Assembly: GCF_006715565.1 (NCBI RefSeq)
Contig: NZ_VFNL01000001.1
Coordinates: forward strand, 620,001-684,000
Reading direction: 5' to 3'
DNA length: 64,000 nucleotides
Source: Microbacterium sp. SLBN-154
GTDB lineage: Bacteria > Actinomycetota > Actinomycetes > Actinomycetales > Microbacteriaceae
Part shown: in pieces, positions 3,111 through 64,000 of the stretch
Numbering within the stretch: position 1 is the first letter of the stretch
Layout: each line of letters begins with the position of its first letter
Made by a program: the position numbers and the translations under genes
Notes under the pieces: generated by a model
What the model saw: the letters and a program-made list of their open reading frames with translations, nothing else
What the model was told of the DNA's origin: nothing
Database searches by the model: none

Positions 3111-4518
3111 CCGCGCGCGCTCTTCGGCGCGTCCGCGGCCGACTCCTCGTCGCGCGTTCGTGCTGCCCTTCCTCATCGTCGCCGCGCTTCTCGGCGCCCT
3201 GGGACTCGCGGGCGCCGCGGTGAGCACTCTTCAGGGGCCGCGGGTGACGGCGGTCGATGTCGACCCCGAGGCGGCCGCTGCGGCATCGGGAGGTCGGTTG
3301 ATCGTCTCGACCTCGCTGCCGCTGGCAGAGGTGACAGCCGACCAGGTCAGCATCACCCCCGAGGTCCCTTTCGCGGTCGACACCTCGGGGCGGAGCCTCG
3401 GCGTGCGGTTCGGGCTCCCGCTGCGGGATGACACCGAGTACACGATCACCATCGAGGGGCTGGCCGCCGCAGGAGGGGGGCCCGCCACCGAGGTCACCGA
3501 GACGTTCCGGACGCCGCGCGCGGAGGTCTTCCTGCTGCAGCGCGGGAATGGCGGCGACACGGTGTTCCGCACCGATCTCACCGGTGAGAATGCCGAGGCG
3601 GTGTTCACCCACCCTCACATCGAGGACTTCCGAGCGACCTCGCGACATCTGGTGATGTCGGTGCTCGACGACGACGGATCGGCCGAGCTGATCGTGACGA
3701 ACCTCGAGGGCGGCGACGAGCGGAGCCTTCCGCTGCCCGGTGACGGGTTCGTCACGAATCTGCAGAGCGCCGACCGCGGCGAGGTGGTCGGCTACCTGTA
3801 CACCGACGAGGATGTCAGCGCCGAAGGCGCCCGGGAGAGTCGTCTCTACACGGCATCACTCGCCCGGGGCGCCGCCGAGGTCGACCCCACCGAGATCGCG
3901 ATCGAGGGCGCCGACCCCCGCATCGCCGAGTGGCGGTTCGTGCCTGACACCGACAGCATCCTTCTCCTCTCCTTCGATGGACAGCTCCTCCTGACGGGCG
4001 CCGACGGTGCCGATTCGACGGCGCTCGGGACGGCGTTGTCGATCAGCGGGATCGCCCGCGGCTCGTCGGAGGCGGTCGTGGAGCGCGCGGACGGGCCGGC
4101 GGTGATCGATCTGACGGATGCCTCGGAAGAGCCGCTCGGGGTTCCCCAAACCGATCTCGGGACGGTCACCACGATCACGCCCATGCCCGACGGCGGGACG
4201 ATCCGCTCCGCCGCGGTGTTCGACAGCGGCGGCAACCCCACCGGATCGACCGCCGTCGTGCGCGTCGGCGCCGACGGGGCCACGAGCGCCCTCACCGAGA
4301 TCGGTGCGGCGGACGCCGTCGTGCAGACCTGCGTATCGCCGAGCGCACGCTATCTCGCAGTGCTCGTCGCGCCGGCCGCGGCGCAGAACGCGTACGACGA
4401 CTATCGCCTACCGCTCCCCGAACGACTGCAGACCCGCATCGTCGAGATCGACGACGGGACGCAGGTCGTCTCGCTGCAGGGCTTCGACATCTCGTGGTGT
4501 CAGGTGCCCCCGCGGTGA
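3100..4518 (+). CDS. Membrane-anchored beta-propeller-like exported protein with SbsA Ig-like region
   Basis: 472 residues. A basic N-terminus and one hydrophobic helix (about residues 20-45, no lipobox) suggest a signal anchor. The next ~90 residues resemble a bacterial Ig-like (SbsA/Big_5) domain, with the typical LRDDTEYTITIEGL strand pattern. The remaining ~330 residues show repeated blades of short beta segments (for example LTGENAEAVFTHPHIEDF and IAEWRFVPDTDSILLLS), as in TolB/WD40-like propellers. The ATG overlaps the preceding gene by 11 bp, so it is translated with the permease operon. I recognise the folds but not a specific function; a surface or periplasmic accessory is plausible. 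No catalytic residues are evident. Confidence 0.65.
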   Translation: MSTDRARSSARPRPTPRRAFVLPFLIVAALLGALGLAGAAVSTLQGPRVTAVDVDPEAAAAASGGRLIVSTSLPLAEVTADQVSITPEVPFAVDTSGRSLGVRFGLPLRDDTEYTITIEGLAAAGGGPATEVTETFRTPRAEVFLLQRGNGGDTVFRTDLTGENAEAVFTHPHIEDFRATSRHLVMSVLDDDGSAELIVTNLEGGDERSLPLPGDGFVTNLQSADRGEVVGYLYTDEDVSAEGARESRLYTASLARGAAEVDPTEIAIEGADPRIAEWRFVPDTDSILLLSFDGQLLLTGADGADSTALGTALSISGIARGSSEAVVERADGPAVIDLTDASEEPLGVPQTDLGTVTTITPMPDGGTIRSAAVFDSGGNPTGSTAVVRVGADGATSALTEIGAADAVVQTCVSPSARYLAVLVAPAAAQNAYDDYRLPLPERLQTRIVEIDDGTQVVSLQGFDISWCQVPPR

Positions 4519-5414
4519 GCGCGATCCCCCATCAGCCCGGCGGAGAGGGCTCGGGGCTCCGGCCGGCCTCCCGCGCCGACGTTGCGGGACTGCCCGTCGA
4601 CGTCGCGCCGCGGCTGCTCGGGGGAATCCTCGAGGTGACCGTCGACGGAGAGACCGTCGCCGTCCGCCTCACCGAGGTCGAGGCCTACCACGGTCGGGGC
4701 ACGGGCTCGGTGCCCGACCCCGGGTCGCATGCTCGCATGGGACCGACCGCGCGCAACGCCACCATGTGGGGGGAGCCGGGCCACCTCTACGTCTACCTCA
4801 GTCACGGAATCCATTCGTGCGTGAACGTCGTGTGCGGCCCCGAGGGCACCGCCGGCGGAATCCTCCTGCGCGCGGGTGAGATCGTGAGCGGGAGGGATGC
4901 CGCGGCGCGCCGTCGCACCGCCACCCGCGTGCCGGTTTCTGCCGCCGCTGTCGCTTCTCCGTCGGTTCCTGCCGGTGTCGCGTCTGGTCCGTCGGTTCCC
5001 GCCGGTGTTGCGTCTGGTCCGTCGGTTCCCGCCGGCGCTGCGTCTGGTCCGTTGGTTCCCGCCGGCGCTGCGTCTGGTCCGCCGGTTCCCGCAGGCGTTG
5101 CTTCTTCTCCTCGCGCCCTCCCGGATCGTGACCTCGCTCGGGGACCCGGCCGATTGGGGCAGGCGGTCGGCCTGCGGCATCCGGTCCACGATGGAATCGA
5201 CGCGATCACCTCCGAGCCGCGCGCGGGAGCGGTGGCGAGACTGCTCCTTCCTGATGAACCTCTTCCGGAGACGGTCGCCGGGCCGCGGGTCGGTGTCGCC
5301 GGAGTCGCGGGAACCGCCGTGTTCCCCTGGCGTTTCTGGATCGACGGCGACCCGACGGTGTCGGCCTTCCGGTGGGGACGGGGTGCCCGCGAGGCCGACA
5401 CCCGGAACACCTGA
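4515..5414 (+). CDS. DNA-3-methyladenine glycosylase (AAG/MPG family) with internal decapeptide repeats
   Basis: Base-excision repair glycosylase of the AAG/MPG family, removing alkylated purines. Diagnostic features are VRLTEVEAYHG with the catalytic glutamate, NATMWGEPGHLYVYLSHGIH (DNA intercalating/active-site region), the CVNVVC strand, RGPGRLGQAVGL and the C-terminal GVAGTAVFPWRFW. Bacterial members usually have about 190-220 residues; this one has 299. The excess is an insert of five to six decapeptide repeats of the type SVPAGVASGP between the two core halves (encoded at about 4945-5110). GTG at 4515 overlaps the previous stop as GTGA. The fold motifs on both sides are intact, so the enzyme is probably active and the repeats form a flexible Pro/Ala/Ser loop. 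Confidence 0.88.
   Translation: MSAIPHQPGGEGSGLRPASRADVAGLPVDVAPRLLGGILEVTVDGETVAVRLTEVEAYHGRGTGSVPDPGSHARMGPTARNATMWGEPGHLYVYLSHGIHSCVNVVCGPEGTAGGILLRAGEIVSGRDAAARRRTATRVPVSAAAVASPSVPAGVASGPSVPAGVASGPSVPAGAASGPLVPAGAASGPPVPAGVASSPRALPDRDLARGPGRLGQAVGLRHPVHDGIDAITSEPRAGAVARLLLPDEPLPETVAGPRVGVAGVAGTAVFPWRFWIDGDPTVSAFRWGRGAREADTRNT
4945..5110 (+). repeat. In-frame 30-bp minisatellite inside the DNA glycosylase gene
   Basis: Five to six imperfect 30-bp units encode SVPAGVASGP-like decapeptides, with drift to AASGPLVPAG and AASGPPVPAG in the later units. All units are multiples of three, so the frame is kept. The units are richer in T than the flanking coding DNA. No repeat continues outside the loop between the two conserved glycosylase halves. 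Confidence 0.85.
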
Positions 5415-5549
5415 GCGTCACGACGACCGACGGCGGTATCCCGTGCGCTCGGCTGTCGCGATGTCGGTCCCCGACCCCGACCTCGACTTCGGACCTCGAA
5501 CCTCGAAGCGACTCGGACGTCGGAGCAGCCTCCGAAGCCGAACGCGACT

Positions 5550-5963: not shown

Positions 5964-7295
5964 ATGACGTCACCACTTGCGGGGATCGCCCAGGCGCTCG
6001 AGGTGCTGGCGCTCGCAGGCGGCGACCGCATGCCATCGGCGCTCACTCCGTCGGAGTTGATCGCGGTGACCGACGCTTTCGGGTCGTTGAAGAGGCACGT
6101 CGATGCCGCGTACGCCGGCGTCGCGGCGGAGGTCGCTCGGCAATCGCGCGCTGAGCTCGGGAGAGACTCGCTGGCGAAGCGGCAGGGATTCTCGTCACCC
6201 GCAGTCCTCATCTCGACGACGACCGGCACGAGCGTCGGTGAGTCCGTGCGGATGATCCAGGTCGGCGAAGCGACGGCACCCCGCACCGCCCTGAGCGGTG
6301 AGCAGCTCCCGGCCAGGCATCCGCACGTGGCGGCCGCGCTATCCGCCGGACGGATGGGGATGACGGCCGCCGCATCGATCGTGACCATGTTGACGAAGCT
6401 GGCGCTGCGGGTCGACTCCGCGCGGCTCGAGGACGCCGAGCGGCAGCTCTGCGATCTGGCGCCCGGGCTGCGGCCCGATGAGCTGGTCAAGCTGCTCGCG
6501 CGCGTGGAGGCGCACCTCGATCCCGACGGTGTGGCCCCGCGCCATGAGGAGCTGCGGGGCGCACGGGCGCTCGTGATCCAGGAGCGCGACGGGATGCTGG
6601 TCATCTCGGCGAAGCTCGACGTCGAGACCGGAGCGCCGGTGAAGGCGGCGATCGAGTCGCTCGTGGGCGCGAGTCTCCGGCGGAACGAGCACTCTCCCGA
6701 CGATGACCGCGACACCCGGTCGGTGAAACAGATGAACGCCGATGCCCTCGCCGACATCTGCCGGCACGCCATCGGATGCGACCGGGTTCCGACCGCTGCG
6801 TCGACGACCGTCGTGATCCGCATGGATCTCGAGGCGCTCGAAAGCGGCGTCGGCACGGCGACGATCGACGGCATCGCCCAGCCCGTGCCCGCAGGCATGA
6901 TCCGACGACTGGCCGCCGATCAGCAGGTCATCCCCTGCGTGCTCGGCGGTGAAAGCGAGATCCTCGACTGGGGTCGCACCCGCCGACTGTTCACCACGGC
7001 CCAGAAGCTCGCCATCGCCGAGCGCGACGGAGGATGCATCGACTGCGGTGCCCCGCCGATGTGGTGTCATGTGCACCACATCGCCTGGTGGGACAGGGAC
7101 CGGGGCAGGACGGATCTGGCCAACGGGGTCCTCCTCTGCACCGGCTGTCACCATCGGCTTCACTCCGACGGGTGGGAGATCACGGTCGACGGTGCGGGGG
7201 TCGAAGGCCGCGTGCACCTGGTGCCCCCACCCTGGATCGATCCACAGCGAAGGCCGCGACTGGCCGGGCGAGCCCGCTACCGCCTGACCGCCTGA
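5964..7295 (+). CDS. DUF222/13E12-family HNH endonuclease-like protein
   Basis: 443 residues. The N-terminal ~300 residues form the alpha-helical DUF222 (13E12 repeat) region common in actinobacterial genomes. The C-terminus is an HNH nuclease module with the zinc-binding pattern CIDCGAP...CHVHHIAWW...LANGVLLCTGCHHRLH, so all metal and catalytic histidines are present. These genes occur in many near-identical copies per genome; their role is unsettled and they have been linked to repetitive elements and possibly DNA repair or mobility. The gene stands alone between a divergent promoter region and the ribosomal protein operon. The ATG is supported by the -10 box 6 bp upstream. Confidence 0.83.
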   Translation: MTSPLAGIAQALEVLALAGGDRMPSALTPSELIAVTDAFGSLKRHVDAAYAGVAAEVARQSRAELGRDSLAKRQGFSSPAVLISTTTGTSVGESVRMIQVGEATAPRTALSGEQLPARHPHVAAALSAGRMGMTAAASIVTMLTKLALRVDSARLEDAERQLCDLAPGLRPDELVKLLARVEAHLDPDGVAPRHEELRGARALVIQERDGMLVISAKLDVETGAPVKAAIESLVGASLRRNEHSPDDDRDTRSVKQMNADALADICRHAIGCDRVPTAASTTVVIRMDLEALESGVGTATIDGIAQPVPAGMIRRLAADQQVIPCVLGGESEILDWGRTRRLFTTAQKLAIAERDGGCIDCGAPPMWCHVHHIAWWDRDRGRTDLANGVLLCTGCHHRLHSDGWEITVDGAGVEGRVHLVPPPWIDPQRRPRLAGRARYRLTA

Positions 7296-8269: not shown

Positions 8270-9142
8270 TCAGCGGGCGAGCCGGCGGTGCGCCACCGCG
8301 ACATCGGTGACCACCTCATCGGTCGACTCCCCGCGCACGTGCGGGTACTGGGCCTTCAACAGATCGGCGAGCTCGTCCACGATCACGGCGAGGGCGCGAC
8401 CCGCACTGCGCACTGCTGAGCGCGGAGACCCTTCCGCCACGTCACGCAGCTCGAGCACGTACTCCATCGCCTGCGGCGCCGACAGCCGGCGCGACTCGTC
8501 GGCGAAGTAGAAGATCTCGGAGTTCTGCACCAGATCGGCCGTGAGCACCGCAAGCGACTCGGTCACCCGATCGACGATCGAGGCCGCGCGCTCATCGCTG
8601 AAGGTCACCAGGTCCTCAGCGGTACGCGAACGACGAAGGCTCTCGATCTGCAGCCCGAAGGCGCGCCTGCGCGCAAGCGCCGGGTAGAGCTGCATGAACC
8701 AAGAGACCGATGCCGACAGCAGCGCGAACCCCATCAGCGCCTCCAGGGGAGACACCAGCCGCAACAGCGGCTGAGCGGGCACGACGTCACCCAGCCCGAG
8801 GGTGGTGAGAGCGACGAGCGACATCGTCACAGACTCGGCGAACGGGTCGAACTCCGCCGGTTCCAGACTCTGGTACGCGAATCCGTGCGGCATATGCGGC
8901 AGGTAGACCAGCGCCCAGCCGAGGGTGATGAGCGCGACCCAGACCCCGATGACGATGAGGATGGTCAGGGGCGCGGATGCCGGAAAACGGCGACTCGGCA
9001 CGATCGCCCACGACAGCCGGAAGATGATGTGCGTCAGACGGCCGGTCTCGCTCGGCCGGAGCAGCGTCTGGAAGACGTCGTAGAGCGCCGTGACGATCAG
9101 GATGATCCCGACGAGGGTGGCGACGATACCGGGGATGGTCAT
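8270..9142 (-). CDS. Two-transmembrane pore-domain potassium-type ion channel
   Basis: 290 residues. Hydrophobic N-terminal helix, then two helices flanking a pore loop with TTLGLGDVVPAQPLLR, a variant of the TVGYGD selectivity filter, followed by a long soluble helical C-terminal region. The fold is the Ion_trans_2 type. The filter reads GLGD instead of GYGD, so potassium selectivity is likely but not certain. ATG at 9142 (MTIPGIVATLVG) was chosen over longer in-frame starts because the upstream extension is low-complexity Arg/Ala and antisense to the start of the esterase gene. Divergent from the esterase by about 100 bp. Confidence 0.75.
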   Translation of the reverse strand: MTIPGIVATLVGIILIVTALYDVFQTLLRPSETGRLTHIIFRLSWAIVPSRRFPASAPLTILIVIGVWVALITLGWALVYLPHMPHGFAYQSLEPAEFDPFAESVTMSLVALTTLGLGDVVPAQPLLRLVSPLEALMGFALLSASVSWFMQLYPALARRRAFGLQIESLRRSRTAEDLVTFSDERAASIVDRVTESLAVLTADLVQNSEIFYFADESRRLSAPQAMEYVLELRDVAEGSPRSAVRSAGRALAVIVDELADLLKAQYPHVRGESTDEVVTDVAVAHRRLAR

Positions 9143-9239
9143 GCGGGTCACGGTAGGCGATGCCCGCCGATCCGGCACCGACCGAGGTCCCGCCGGATCC
9201 GTCGCTCGTAGACTCAGGTGTCCCCGGGAAAGGAACGCC

Positions 9240-10322
9240 GTGCCACTCGACCCGGTCTTCGCCGACCGCCTTCGCGTCCACCGGAAGTACCTCTTCGGGC
9301 AGGCCGTCTCGCGGCTGAAGACGCGCCTGGCCGCGATCTGGCGCTTCGGGCCGCCCTCGAGTGCGCCCGCGCCCCGCACCCGCGCCGAGGGGTCGCCCGG
9401 CCCGCGCGCCCGCGCGCGCGCGAAGCACCGCCGCGCGGCCCTCGCGTGGGACCGCACCGAGCTCGAGACCGTCGGGACCCCGGGCCCCGACATCCGCACC
9501 GTCGAGCACACCGTGGCGGTTCCGGGCAGGCCCGCCGTGCGCGTGCGCGTCTACGATCCGCGCCCGTCCGACGCGGATGCCGCCGTGGCACCCCTCCCCG
9601 CGGTACTGGCCTTCTTCGGCGGCGCCTTCCGCATCGGCGGCGTCGACTATCCGACCACCGACGCCGGCTTCCGTCGCCGCGCCGCCGACGCCGACGTCGT
9701 CATCGTCGCCGTCGACTACGCCCTCGCCCCCGAGCACCGCTATCCCGTCGCCGTCGAGCAGGGCGCAGCGGTGCTCCGCTGGCTGTTCGCCCACGCGGCC
9801 GAGCTCGGCGTCGACGAGGACCGCGTCGGAATCCTCGGCACCTCCGCGGGAGCGAACCTCGCCGCAGCCGTCACACTCATCAACCGCGACGACGACGATC
9901 CGCTGCCCCTCCGCCTCCAGGTGCTCGAGGTTCCGGTGCTCGACCTCACGGGCCGGCACCTCGACCTCCGGGCGACGCGGGCGCTGGGTGTGCCGACCGT
10001 CATCGCCCTGCGCGAACTCCGATCGGTCGCGCGCACCTACCTGCCCCACCGTCGGACGGCGCGCGAGCCCCTCGCCTCGCCCCTTCTCGCCGCCTCGCAC
10101 GCAGGACTGCCGCCCGCGGTCATCCTCACCGCCGAGTTCGACCCGCTCCGGGGCGATGGTGCCGCCTACGCCGCCGCGCTCCGTGCATCGGGCGTCGATG
10201 CCAGCGCGGTGCAGTATCTCGGCGTCACCCACGACACCCCCATCTTCACCGGCGTGCTTCCCGCTGCTCGGCGATGGCACGGCGACGTGGTCGCGGCCCT
10301 TCGCCGGCTCCACGGGCGCTGA
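9240..10322 (+). CDS. Alpha/beta hydrolase of the hormone-sensitive lipase family (esterase/lipase)
   Basis: 360 residues. Oxyanion-hole region FFGGAFRIGG (family usual HGGG), then YALAPEHRYP, the nucleophile elbow GTSAGANLAA (GxSxG), the acid EFDPLRGDG and the histidine in GVTHDTPIF, in the right order and spacing for an HSL-family carboxylesterase. The N-terminal ~90 residues are Arg/Pro rich and may be a cap or poorly ordered. No signal peptide. GTG at 9240 follows AAAGGA; upstream in-frame codons lie antisense to the channel gene. Substrate unknown. The His-Gly-Gly-Gly motif has Phe in place of the first His, a small departure from the family. Confidence 0.82.
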   Translation: MPLDPVFADRLRVHRKYLFGQAVSRLKTRLAAIWRFGPPSSAPAPRTRAEGSPGPRARARAKHRRAALAWDRTELETVGTPGPDIRTVEHTVAVPGRPAVRVRVYDPRPSDADAAVAPLPAVLAFFGGAFRIGGVDYPTTDAGFRRRAADADVVIVAVDYALAPEHRYPVAVEQGAAVLRWLFAHAAELGVDEDRVGILGTSAGANLAAAVTLINRDDDDPLPLRLQVLEVPVLDLTGRHLDLRATRALGVPTVIALRELRSVARTYLPHRRTAREPLASPLLAASHAGLPPAVILTAEFDPLRGDGAAYAAALRASGVDASAVQYLGVTHDTPIFTGVLPAARRWHGDVVAALRRLHGR

Positions 10323-29642: not shown

Positions 29643-29707
29643 CCGACACGCGCGAGGGTGCCGCCGAGTCGCGGGCGTGAGTGCGCGCCTTCTAGGCTGA
29701 GGCCCGC

Positions 29708-59815: not shown

Positions 59816-60595
59816 TCAGGTGAGGCCGTGCCGGTGAGCGTAGACCACCGCGGCGACCCGGTCGCGGGCGCCGAGCTTCTGCAGCACGTTGGAGACGTGG
59901 GTCTTCACCGTGGCCTCGCCGATGAAGAGCCGCTCGGCGATCTCGGCGTTGCTGAGCGCCTGCGCGACGAGGCGCAGCACCTCGGTCTCGCGATCGGTGA
60001 GCTCGACGACGGGTGCGGCGGGCGCGGCCTCGGGCGCCGCCGCCGTCGGCCCGGACGAGGAGATTCGGTCCAGACGCGGACGATCCGACGCGAAAGCTCC
60101 GCCGCTCGGCCGATCCTCCTCGACCGAGGTGGGCGGGGCCGGGCGCGGCGCCGCGTTCAGGGCCGAGTCCGCGCCACCGCCCGCGAACCGCTGGATCACC
60201 CGGCGCGTGACCTCGGGGGCGAGCAGCGCGTCGCCCGCGGCGGCGACCCGCACCGCGTGGACGAGCTCCTCGGGCCCGGCGTTCTTCAGCAGGAATCCGC
60301 TGGCCCCCGCCGACAGCGCCTCGAAGAGGTAGTCGTCGCGGTCGAAGGTGGTCACGATGAGGAGGGCGGCCTCCGATCCCGCCTCGACGAGGGTGCGGGT
60401 CGCGGTGATCCCGTCCATCCCGGGCATCTGCACGTCCATGCAGATCACGTCGGGAGAATGGACGGATGCCGCGGCGACCGCCTCGGAGCCGTTCGCCGCC
60501 TCTGCGACCACCGCGATGTCATCCTCGGATTCGAGGATCATGCGAAAGCCCGCCCGCATGACGGCATGGTCGTCGACGAGGAGGACGCGGATCAT
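59816..60595 (-). CDS. NarL/LuxR-family response regulator with long linker
   Basis: 259 residues. Receiver domain with phosphoacceptor Asp54 (VICMDVQMPGMDG), Lys in FLLKNAGPEEL; C-terminal LuxR HTH ELTDRETEVLRLVAQALSNAEIAERLFIGEATVKTHVSNVLQKLG. A ~60-residue Pro/Ala/Ser linker separates the domains (usual is ~20), so the protein is longer than the ~215 of the family. The ATG overlaps the kinase stop by 4 bp; the cognate kinase is the gene next upstream. Likely targets: its own operon and the ABC exporter. Confidence 0.9.
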   Translation of the reverse strand: MIRVLLVDDHAVMRAGFRMILESEDDIAVVAEAANGSEAVAAASVHSPDVICMDVQMPGMDGITATRTLVEAGSEAALLIVTTFDRDDYLFEALSAGASGFLLKNAGPEELVHAVRVAAAGDALLAPEVTRRVIQRFAGGGADSALNAAPRPAPPTSVEEDRPSGGAFASDRPRLDRISSSGPTAAAPEAAPAAPVVELTDRETEVLRLVAQALSNAEIAERLFIGEATVKTHVSNVLQKLGARDRVAAVVYAHRHGLT

Positions 60596-61955: not shown

Positions 61956-62633
61956 TCAGGTGAGGCGGACGATGTCGGCGCGCGCCGCCCGGATGAGGGT
62001 CTGCACGCGGTCGCGAACCCCCCACTTGGCCATCACGTTGCCGAGGTGCGTCTTCACCGTCGCCTCCGACAGATGGAGCTCGGCGGCGATCTCGGCGTTG
62101 GACATCCCCCGTCCGAGGAGGACGACCACGTCGCGCTCGCGATCGGAGAGCTGCTCGTGGTCGGCGAGCGACTCGACGGTCGTCGGCCCCGCGCCGTCGC
62201 GGATGGAGGTGATGAGCTCTGTCGTGACGCTCGGGGAGATCACCACCGAGCCGTCGACGACGTCGCGGATGGCGGCGACGAGCTCGTCGGGATCGGTGTC
62301 CTTCACCAGGTACGCGCTCGCCCCTGCGCGAAGGGCCGGCACGACGTAGCGCACCGACGAGAACGTGGTCACTGCGATCACGCGGATCTCGGGGAAGGCC
62401 TCGTGGATGCGGCGGGTGGCCTCGACGCCGTCGACGCCGGGCATCTGCATGTCCATGAGCACGGCGTCGGGACGCAGTTCGGCGCAGAGGTGCACGGCCG
62501 CGGCGCCATCGGCCGCCTCGCCGACGACCTCCATGTCGGGGGCGCTGCGCACGAACACCGCCAGCGCGTGACGCATGAGGGCCTCGTCGTCGACGATGAT
62601 GACACGCAGAGACGCGGGAGCGGCGGTCGGCAC
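61956..62633 (-). CDS. NarL/LuxR-family response regulator (second system)
   Basis: 225 residues from GTG 62633, which lies 6 bp after a TAGACT -10 (62645-62640), so leaderless. Receiver with Asp61 (VLMDMQMPGVDG), Lys in YLVKDTDPDELV; LuxR HTH LSDRERDVVVLLGRGMSNAEIAAELHLSEATVKTHLGNVMAKWG. Normal length. No kinase follows on this strand; the likely partner is the divergent kinase at 62922. A palindrome between (62667-62682) is a good candidate operator. Confidence 0.9.
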   Translation of the reverse strand: MPTAAPASLRVIIVDDEALMRHALAVFVRSAPDMEVVGEAADGAAAVHLCAELRPDAVLMDMQMPGVDGVEATRRIHEAFPEIRVIAVTTFSSVRYVVPALRAGASAYLVKDTDPDELVAAIRDVVDGSVVISPSVTTELITSIRDGAGPTTVESLADHEQLSDRERDVVVLLGRGMSNAEIAAELHLSEATVKTHLGNVMAKWGVRDRVQTLIRAARADIVRLT

Positions 62634-62666
62634 ACGGGCAGTCTATGGGCCGGGGCGGAACCCGGG

Positions 62667-62682
62667 TCCGACGAAAGTCGGA
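62667..62682. promoter_or_regulatory. Palindrome between the second regulator and the peptide gene
   Basis: TCCGAC-GAAA-GTCGGA, perfect 6-bp arms. It lies just upstream of the -35 position for the minus-strand regulator and about 80 bp before the Shine-Dalgarno of the peptide gene, so one factor could control both. Confidence 0.5.
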
Positions 62683-62761
62683 GGGGAACGGCGACCTTCG
62701 ACTGCTGCGCCGCCACGGCTCGACCGCGAGGATGGAGGCATCGACTTCTGAGGAGGAGATC

Positions 62762-62878
62762 ATGGCACCGACGCCGACCCGCCCCCTGCCGGGCTTCGCC
62801 AGCGTCCTCGGTCGCGGTCCGCTCGCACCGCTGGCGTTCTGGAGCACCCTCTGCAACCTGTTCGGCGGCACCTGCTGA
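62762..62878 (+). CDS. 38-residue peptide with C-terminal Cys pair, candidate signal or modified peptide
   Basis: MAPTPTRPLPGFASVLGRGP then LAPLAFWSTLCNLFGGTC. ATG 62762 has a consensus AGGAGGAG at ideal distance, one of the strongest ribosome sites in the window, which argues strongly that it is translated. The N-terminal half is Pro/Thr/Arg rich; the C-terminal half is hydrophobic with Cys31 and Cys38 and ends GGTC. It lies between a divergent response regulator and a co-directional histidine kinase. I know no family for it. Size, leader/core-like split and context suggest a secreted signal, a leader peptide, or a ribosomal peptide precursor; no maturation enzyme is visible in the window. 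Confidence 0.6.
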   Translation: MAPTPTRPLPGFASVLGRGPLAPLAFWSTLCNLFGGTC

Positions 62879-62887
62879 GTCGCCGGC

Positions 62888-62914
62888 GCCCGGGCACAGC
62901 TGCCCGGGCATAAT
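62888..62914 (+). promoter_or_regulatory. Kinase promoter overlapped by a perfect palindrome
   Basis: GCCCGGGCA-CAGC-TGCCCGGGC (62888-62909), 9-bp arms, lies directly in front of CATAAT (62909-62914), a near-consensus -10. The kinase ATG (62922) is 7 bp further, so leaderless. The palindrome fills the -35/-10 spacer and could be an operator, or a terminator for the peptide gene 9 bp upstream. Confidence 0.5.
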
Positions 62915-62921
62915 CGGGGGG

Positions 62922-64000
62922 ATGGCTTCCCACGCCTCCACCCCTCGCTCAGCCGGCAGCGGCGCCGCCGGCTGGCGTGATATCTGGCGCATCACCCCCC
63001 TCTCCCGCGTCGCCGCACGAGTGGTGGTGGCGCTCGTGGTCGCGATCATCGCTCTCGAGATCGTCGTCGCCGTCATCGACGCCGGGGCCGAGCCCCTCAC
63101 CACCACCGTCGCCGAGATCCTCATCACCGCGTGCTTCGCCCTGTTCGCGGTGCACCCGCCCACCGCGACGCTCGTGCTCCTGGCCGGCGCCTCCCTCGCC
63201 CTCGGGCGGACGGGCGCCGAGCAGACCCTCCTCGCGCTCGCCGTGGCATCCGGATTCGTCGTCGCCACCTGCTCCCGCATCCTCTCTCTCGTCTACGGCG
63301 CGGGACTGGTCGTGTGGATCCTCATCGTCATCGTCTTCTCCCCCGGTGCGATTCCCGGCACCTGGATCGTGGTGCTGGCGATCCTCGCCGCCGTCTCGGC
63401 CGTGATCGGGTGGTCGGTCAGGCGACTCCGCGAGCGCACGAGCGCGCTGTCGACGGCGCTCGAGCGCCGCGAGCGTGCCGCCGAGGACGCCGCCCGTGTG
63501 GAGCGCCAGCGGATCAGCGATGAGCTCCACGACGTCATCGCTCACGAGCTGACGATCATCTCCATGCACGCGAGCGTGCTGGAGCGCACCGACGACAGCG
63601 CGATCCGCAGCGAATCGGAGGCGGCGATCCGGGATGCCGCGCGGCAGGCCCTCGCCGATATCCGGCGTCTGCTCGATCTCACCGCGCCGTCGGACGGTGA
63701 GGAGGGAGACGGCGGCCGGAGGCGGCTTCGCTCGACGCTCGGCGACGTCGAGCGTGAACTGCGCGCGCTGGGAATGACCGTCGACGCACGCGGCTTCGAT
63801 GCCGCCGGCTCGCTCTCGCCGACGGTCGACATCGCGCTGGCCCGCGTCCTGCGGGAGGCTGCGACCAACGTCGCGAAACACGGTCGCCCCGACGGTGCCG
63901 TCGAGATCGCCCTTTCCCTCGAGGACGGCGAGGCGACCCTCGCGGTCGTCAACCCCGTGGGTGGGGGGTCGGCGCGCACCCGACTCGCCCTGCCTTCCGG
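62922..64000 (+). CDS. Sensor histidine kinase, 3' end cut by window
   Basis: At least 359 residues, frame open to the window edge. About four N-terminal helix pairs, then a short coiled coil, HisKA_3 box DELHDVIAHELTIISMHASVL with phospho-His, and the start of the HATPase domain (ALARVLREAATNVAKHGRPDGAVEIALSL, N-box). LuxR-type system kinase of the DesK class; probable partner of the divergent regulator at 61956-62633, with the 38-residue peptide gene in between. A second response regulator may follow beyond the window, which would change the pairing. Confidence 0.88.
   Translation, partial: MASHASTPRSAGSGAAGWRDIWRITPLSRVAARVVVALVVAIIALEIVVAVIDAGAEPLTTTVAEILITACFALFAVHPPTATLVLLAGASLALGRTGAEQTLLALAVASGFVVATCSRILSLVYGAGLVVWILIVIVFSPGAIPGTWIVVLAILAAVSAVIGWSVRRLRERTSALSTALERRERAAEDAARVERQRISDELHDVIAHELTIISMHASVLERTDDSAIRSESEAAIRDAARQALADIRRLLDLTAPSDGEEGDGGRRRLRSTLGDVERELRALGMTVDARGFDAAGSLSPTVDIALARVLREAATNVAKHGRPDGAVEIALSLEDGEATLAVVNPVGGGSARTRLALPS

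Follow-up and report, generated by a model that had tools for sequence, protein, structure and literature searches.

In this study, we analysed a 64,000-nt stretch of DNA (the window) from Microbacterium sp. SLBN-154, whose genome is one contig of 3.57 Mb, and focused on a very short gene near its end. The gene, MAPTPTRPLPGFASVLGRGPLAPLAFWSTLCNLFGGTC, encodes a peptide with a Pro-rich N-terminal half and cysteines at positions 31 and 38, and no signal peptide is recognisable in this 38-mer. It lies between a divergently transcribed response regulator gene (RR2) and a co-directional sensor kinase gene (HK2); the HK2 protein matches HisKA_3 (8e-12), and its N-terminal half is hydrophobic according to its hydropathy. 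A preliminary description of this DNA had reported the 38 codons, the Shine-Dalgarno sequence, the Pro-rich half, the two cysteines and the arrangement of the flanking genes, and all of these were confirmed. The features of the locus are collected in Table 1. A second response regulator gene (59816-60595) and a second sensor kinase gene (HK1, 60592 to about 61883) adjoin RR2 on the minus strand, and in another genome (locus L019) the RR2 orthologue likewise adjoins a regulator of 63% identity and an additional kinase.

Table 1. Features of the peptide locus (window positions)
Feature	Position	Strand	Remarks
Peptide gene MAPTPTRPLPGFASVLGRGPLAPLAFWSTLCNLFGGTC	62762..62878 (ATG 62762, TGA 62876-62878)	+	38 codons; candidate autoinducer
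Shine-Dalgarno sequence GAGGAGG of the peptide gene	62750..62756	+	Five bases 5' of the ATG
RR2, NarL/LuxR-type response regulator	61956..62633	-	Divergent; class judged from sequence; orthologues found
HK2, DesK-type sensor kinase	62922..64000, on to 64112	+	Ends 112 bases past the window end
GC-rich perfect inverted repeat (hairpin)	62888..62909	+	3' of the peptide stop codon; found by reading
-10-like TAGACT	62640..62645	-	6 nt before the RR2 GTG; leaderless promoter candidate
-10-like CATAAT	62909..62914	+	Candidate leaderless promoter, 7 nt 5' of the HK2 ATG
Operator-like element	62664..62699, core GACGAAAGTCG at 62670-62680	+	Between RR2 and the peptide gene; position weight matrix (PWM)

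A tblastn search with the peptide against 366 genomes of the same genus (E 0.01) gave matches in only two, the genome of origin and a stray one. The latter was weak and was discarded, as it lies at 1.490 Mb inside a 185-codon frame, the RR2 locus of that genome being at 1.236 Mb. Searching instead with RR2 (E 1e-60) yielded 55 loci in 52 of the 366 genomes, and the sequence stretches of all 55 were taken and scanned for ORFs in the spacer. A short ORF bearing a common C-terminal motif was present in the spacer between regulator and kinase, upstream of the kinase gene, at 53 of the 55 loci; the other two (L087 and L089) have no such ORF, though the divergent kinase is kept. For three loci (L072, L076 and L090) a Shine-Dalgarno screen had missed the ORF or set its start wrongly, and the entry was supplied or amended from inspection of the spacer. 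Where several start codons were possible the choice was made by Shine-Dalgarno sequence and position. The motif expression was composed after the loci had been seen, so that the count is a description with a control and not a blind test: the 53 sense matches compare with none at the 55 loci on the antisense strand, and dinucleotide shuffling, repeated 40 times, gave 0.05 on average and never more than 1. The apparent lack of conservation in the similarity search thus disappears when synteny is used in place of BLAST. Genes this short and variable escape similarity search and are revealed only through synteny. At one locus (L058, genome G344) the peptide gene and the regulator gene are still present while the kinase gene, some 3 kb past the peptide gene, seems to be broken up by an inserted element whose frame resembles a transposase on visual inspection.

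The 53 peptides are 12 to 38 residues long and comprise 47 distinct sequences. Their N-termini vary, and they share the C-terminal motif W-x-x-[LI]-[C/G]-x-x-[LIF]-[GR]-[IV]-[C/W/F]-x-stop. An ungapped alignment of the last 12 residues holds for all but the window member and a few others with one residue more or fewer after the motif, so that the distance from motif to stop codon varies by one or two residues. W occupies position -12 in 35 of the 43 distinct cores. Positions -9 and -5 are L, I, F or M, position -8 is only C (28) or G (15), and position -4 is G in 31, R in 11 and K in one. Within these cores G at -8 is always paired with an aromatic residue at -2; locus L137, which came from the wider search described below, departs from this rule with V at -2. 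The window peptide is the longest of the 53 and atypical of the family; its cysteines are six residues apart, compared with five in the other 29 of the 30 members with two cysteines. Three further members have one cysteine and 20 have none, all in the same register. The preliminary suggestion that the peptide is cyclised through Cys31 and Cys38 therefore does not hold as a general rule, and a disulfide or thioether bridge can be at most a trait of the two-cysteine subclass. The 20 members devoid of cysteine also rule out metal sensing by cysteines as a family-wide function.

Selection on the peptide was assessed in 17 disjoint pairs of relatives of equal length and non-identical DNA. The pN/pS ratio was 0.43 in frame (bootstrap 0.29-0.59) and 0.96 and 1.80 in the shifted frames. 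Nucleotide identity was 0.89, 0.95 and 0.85 at codon positions 1, 2 and 3, and 0.81 in the stretch upstream. These data show purifying selection on the protein sequence of the peptide, and together with the synteny counts they mark the 38-residue ORF as real. Among the outcomes that the preliminary description had named as speaking against its reading were absence of the peptide from relatives keeping the flanking genes and a ratio of nonsynonymous to synonymous change near 1; the synteny counts and the ratio of 0.43 are the opposite of both. A Pfam scan gave no match to the ComX family (PF05952) for 20 of 24 peptides, the other four being under 20 residues long. We regard the weak Pfam matches obtained (a viral membrane anchor in two of the 20, with E 0.0053 at best) and a single PDB match (E 0.72) as hydrophobic-helix noise. 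No description of the peptide family was found among the open-licence PubMed Central papers listed by searches that used words and not sequence, or in the family libraries searched.

Relatives of the peptide occur in other genera and families. With RR2 as query, 11 of 299 genomes of the same family (E 1e-58) and 29 of 297 genomes of the same order (E 1e-55) gave matches, the genome of origin and those already known included. This added 35 distinct loci (L102 to L137, less L113, which repeats G215). Nine of them have a divergent kinase, and eight of these nine have the peptide, recognised by the strict motif (L102, L103, L105, L106 and L112), by a looser cysteine rule (L134) or by eye (L126 and L137); L105, L106 and L112 are among those with a weak or no Shine-Dalgarno sequence. 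The ninth, L132, has a divergent kinase but no peptide. At the 26 loci where the kinase is on the same strand or none was found, neither rule detected a peptide in the spacer upstream of the regulator, and the strict motif was absent from both strands of the whole stretch examined around these paralogous regulators. In a further family, f3 (131 genomes), the regulator was found in three genomes, one of them new (L139) and with the peptide present; in family f14 (24 genomes) it was found only in a genome already known. The f3 members are built differently from the short ones. Those at L126 and L134 have 66 and 58 residues, and all three (L126, L134 and L139) begin with a charged and hydrophobic stretch that ends in A-x-A-like sites and, judged by eye, reads as a Sec signal. 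A linker of about 20 to 30 residues comes next, and then FVSDLNCFFFKRC or FFHDLMCVVLKKRC. Two of the three (L134 and L139, from one genus) end in Cys-x6-Cys-stop, as the window peptide does.

Both flanking genes of the module seem to be equipped for separate transcription. The pattern TANNNT lies exactly 6 nt before the regulator start at 51 of the 55 loci (mean 0.43 in mononucleotide-shuffled sequences), and NAT[AG]AT, mostly GATAAT or CATAAT, lies before the in-frame kinase start at 35 of 52 loci (dinucleotide-shuffled mean 0.18, maximum 1), with a spacing of 6 nt in 33 and 7 nt in two, of which the window is one; it is missing at the other 17. One study (PMC3160421) reports TANNNT, placed some 12 bases ahead of the start codon, as a mark of leaderless actinobacterial genes. 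From these sequence patterns, the regulator genes and two-thirds of the kinase genes seem to have leaderless promoters of their own; unlike these starts, the window peptide gene carries a Shine-Dalgarno sequence. The -10-like site of HK2 begins at the last base of the hairpin that follows the peptide gene, for which reason we read the hairpin as a possible end of the peptide transcript.

An operator-like element was also found in the spacer. At 36 of the 53 loci the spacer contains a site of the GACGAAAGTCG type that agrees at 9 or more of 11 positions, and in 31 of these it lies 85 to 118 bases before the peptide start. The seed was chosen by eye, after the gaps behind the kinase gene in three lanthipeptide loci had been viewed too; those three loci and four others, mostly near-duplicates, were left out of the PWM, which used 39 of 46 spacers after the removal of seven in which the matches numbered fewer than 8. 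The window spacer site is the top PWM match in the stretch of its own locus (L004, 12.6 bits) and the second in the 64-kb window, in which the top site, of 13.3 bits, is at 29703 on the minus strand, far from the module. The preliminary description had considered the peptide as an output of the regulator, and the operator-like site upstream of its gene makes this likely as well.

Just past the window end lies a gene cluster (L004 6231-15446) that by its gene content is of the class V lanthipeptide type; it had been missed in the earlier account. HK2 is followed by a methyltransferase gene and then by a gene for an LxmK-like kinase (NF038156, 1.1e-82; 277.9 bits, short of the 315 set as cut-off). 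The cluster further encodes a HopA1 protein (4.8e-37), two tandem precursors (9124-9324 and 9348-9560) of 66 and 70 residues that both end in Cys and score 24.8 and 24.6 bits with the LxmA leader model (just under the cut-off of 25), an M16-type peptidase, a second protein with no Pfam match that is M16-like by position only, an F420-type LLM oxidoreductase, a CypD-like decarboxylase (80.1 bits against a cut-off of 215), one protein with no family match, and an ABC ATPase. The LxmK-like gene was found in five of the 366 genomes of the genus. The LxmK, HopA1, LLM oxidoreductase and decarboxylase proteins of this cluster are all matched at two of the related loci, L017 and L019, and a tblastn match to a precursor was obtained at L019 alone. 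At about 6890-7278 of L019 there are two tandem precursor-like ORFs, the first ending in YNFGC, behind an operator-like site at 6782.

The strongest operator-like sites of these two relatives lie before the biosynthesis genes. In 20 kb of L019 the top PWM site, of 21.8 bits, is in the gap between the kinase and precursor genes, the next reaching 7.7 and the spacer site 5.2; in 20 kb of L017 the top and third sites (21.3 and 11.4 bits) are in the gap between the kinase and LxmK-like genes, and the spacer site scores 12.8. In the window genome, the top eight PWM sites include none before the lanthipeptide genes. These ranks suggest that RR2 controls the lanthipeptide operon in L017 and L019; in the window genome such control is only possible.

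Other loci of the module have other neighbours. At L147 (genome G421, 3196-5437), genes for SdpA and SdpB and a further ORF are directly beside the regulator gene; at L098, genes for a 3-hydroxyacyl-CoA dehydrogenase, a HAD-like protein and a carrier protein adjoin it, with near-identical genes in L099; and the f3 locus L143 has an ABC ATPase and a SpoIIM-domain protein. A cluster containing an ABC ATPase is within the examined stretch of seven of the 55 loci, at no fixed position. No dedicated exporter, protease or modifying enzyme recurs beside the module, and no partner at a fixed place was seen outside the syntenic set. Conversely, five Williamsia and Kitasatospora loci with an LxmK 47-48% identical gave no RR2 or HK2 match in stretches of 18.7 to 21 kb. 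The module thus seems not to be bound to any single cluster in its movements.

Covariation of peptide and kinase was analysed by partial Mantel tests, which tend to be liberal, on 48 of 52 loci after four near-identical kinases had been dropped. The peptide covaried with the sensor part of the kinase given the catalytic part and the regulator (r 0.27, p 0.0002), as against 0.08 (p 0.026) for the catalytic part and -0.06 for the regulator. This signal comes from the syntenic set only: partial r was 0.62 (p 0.0003) for the sensor in the 20 syntenic loci, with 0.04 for the catalytic part and 0.16 for the regulator, and in the 28 non-syntenic loci covariation with the sensor was absent (partial r 0.015, p 0.43).

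We consider that the peptide probably belongs to a new family of actinobacterial peptide autoinducers (pheromones) read by a DesK/NarL-type system, a reading to which, from the comparisons above, we give a probability of about 60%. Basal expression of the regulator and of the kinase would come from two separate leaderless promoters, one for each gene, and that of the peptide from a third promoter in the spacer. The peptide would leave the cell, by Sec in f3 and by some further route in the other members, and the active part would be its 12 or so C-terminal residues, possibly after maturation. The membrane-embedded N-terminal half of the kinase would bind this C-terminus, whereupon the phosphorylated regulator would bind the GACGAAAGTCG-type operator beside the peptide gene, closing a positive feedback loop; the system may serve to sense cell density. 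The regulator may also act at an operator copy before neighbouring biosynthesis genes, here possibly the class V lanthipeptide operon. Of the earlier proposal that the peptide belongs to the kinase/regulator pair, the tie itself thus stands, carried by conservation and selection, and an input to the kinase is most plausibly its role.

Several observations speak for the autoinducer reading: the peptide accompanies the divergent kinase (53 of 55 genus loci and eight of nine further ones, compared with 0 of 26 others); it is under purifying selection and covaries specifically with the sensor in the 20 syntenic loci; its two-cysteine tail follows a Sec-like signal in f3; leaderless -10-like sites precede kinase and regulator; operator copies precede the lanthipeptide genes of two relatives; and the module lies beside varied specialised-metabolism genes (L004, L017, L019, L147 and L098). 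Others speak against it, namely the lack of a recurring exporter, protease or modifying enzyme, of a clear signal peptide outside f3 and of covariation in the 28 loci; the three loci (L087, L089 and L132) with a divergent kinase and no peptide; the lanthipeptide operator outside the top eight in the window genome; the low score of the L019 spacer site; and the 17 of 52 loci that lack the kinase -10 pattern. At L103/L147, moreover, the peptide is followed by an ORF of no more than 154 residues whose similarity to HK2 is confined to the C-terminal part of the kinase; no sensor half is seen, which counts against a receptor role there.

The main rival, which we think unlikely, is a micropeptide that remains in its producer, where it would form a short amphipathic helix in the membrane and modulate the kinase in cis, as MgrB does with PhoQ. 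The members of 13 to 15 residues, for example MWYWLGQLIGIWK, would suit this well, being hydrophobic and having neither a signal peptide nor a linked exporter, and covariation with the membrane half of the kinase in the syntenic loci fits it equally well. It is at odds with the three f3 members, in which the apparent Sec signal and the linker would place the C-terminal part outside the cell.

We see only a slim chance that the peptide is a leader or ribosome-arrest peptide of the TnaC, SecM or CutF type, controlling translation or transcription of the downstream kinase gene. Its position upstream of the kinase gene on the same strand, the conserved residues running up to the stop codon, and the hairpin after the window stop codon, a layout also known in attenuators, would all agree with this, and the Sec signal and cysteines of f3 recall CutF as one report describes it (PMC9973294). 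However, the kinase gene apparently has its own leaderless promoter at 35 of 52 loci, in which case its mRNA need not include the leader. The junction between peptide and kinase genes has a fold z-score of -2.0 in the window and below -2 at 10 of 52 loci, but the mean over the 52 is -0.74, which is no consistent structure. The shifting distance from motif to stop codon, the replacement of Cys by Gly or aromatic residues and the absence of a visible Pro-rich stall motif also argue against arrest, and covariation with the sensor, confined as it is to the syntenic set, would be unexpected of an arrest peptide.

A bacteriocin, or a third class V lanthipeptide precursor ending in Cys for the CypD-like decarboxylase, has still poorer prospects. 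Both precursors of the neighbouring cluster end in Cys, and the decarboxylase is encoded there; however, the LxmA leader model matches these two just below its cut-off and the 38-mer matches nothing, and the LxmK-like gene is in five of 366 genomes, set against 53 loci with the peptide. The third-precursor variant was rejected, as the 38-mer has no LxmA leader (no NCBIfam match). A chance ORF without function, which the plain tblastn result might suggest, is close to refuted by the shared motif, register and position at 53 of 55 loci, the shuffling control and the pN/pS ratio.

If the autoinducer reading is taken further, the modules might make up an undescribed peptide quorum-sensing class of the Actinomycetota, a tentative generalisation to which we give somewhat less than even odds. 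Its signals would have 12 to 38 residues, with no dedicated processing enzyme, modification or exporter, and would be read by DesK-type kinases; Gly and Arg at position -4, which relatives such as the pairs L017/L084, L094/L100 and L077/L078 exchange, would perhaps define specificity groups, and the module would be an exchangeable part of antibiotic clusters. Most known cases of peptide quorum sensing are from Firmicutes. If such a class exists, the actinobacteria gain a testable peptide language, and synthetic peptides of this class could turn on silent clusters, for which they would be a simple chemical handle. The candidate signals can be synthesised directly, being mostly 12 to 30 residues long, and each adjoins its own kinase; in several genomes lanthipeptide or other specialised-metabolism genes are neighbours too.

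The locus shares traits with several known systems. The clusters of the class V lanthipeptides lexapeptide and cacaoidin have in common with its neighbourhood the LxmK-like and HopA1 proteins, precursors with an LxmA leader and a CypD-like decarboxylase, although the 38-mer itself is not a precursor; the regulators reported for the cacaoidin cluster in PMC8068269 are of the LuxR, XRE, TetR and SARP types. With CutF- and SecM-like systems it shares a small ORF upstream of a regulated gene, to which f3 adds the Sec-like signal and the C-terminal cysteines; it differs from them in having no Pro-rich stall motif, no consistent stem-loop and, at 35 of 52 loci, a promoter-like site of the kinase gene. 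As in Agr, the peptide gene lies in a kinase/regulator locus, and 33 of the 53 members have Cys near the C-terminus as AgrD has. However, 20 have no Cys, the proteins are DesK/NarL-type here and of the HPK10 and LytTR classes in Agr, and no AgrB-like protease is among the 10 proteins scanned at the window's own locus.

The kinase and regulator of ComQXPA, ComP (group HPK7) and ComA, are HisKA_3- and NarL-like proteins. No ComQ-like isoprenyl transferase is among the same 10 proteins. The comQXPA genes are all on one strand, whereas the regulator gene is divergent here, and the ComX pre-peptide has 52-73 residues, compared with 12-38 in the genus loci. The ComQXPA census reports none outside the Firmicutes (PMC4008528). 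As described in two papers (PMC4008528, PMC8895600), ComQXPA likewise has a short and very variable pre-peptide gene upstream of the receptor kinase gene, with the regulator gene adjoining, and the route by which ComX leaves the cell is apparently unknown. ComX has a Trp near its C-terminus, as this family does, and the HisKA_3 kinase and NarL-type regulator (classed by sequence) that adjoin the window peptide gene are a further ComQXPA-like trait.
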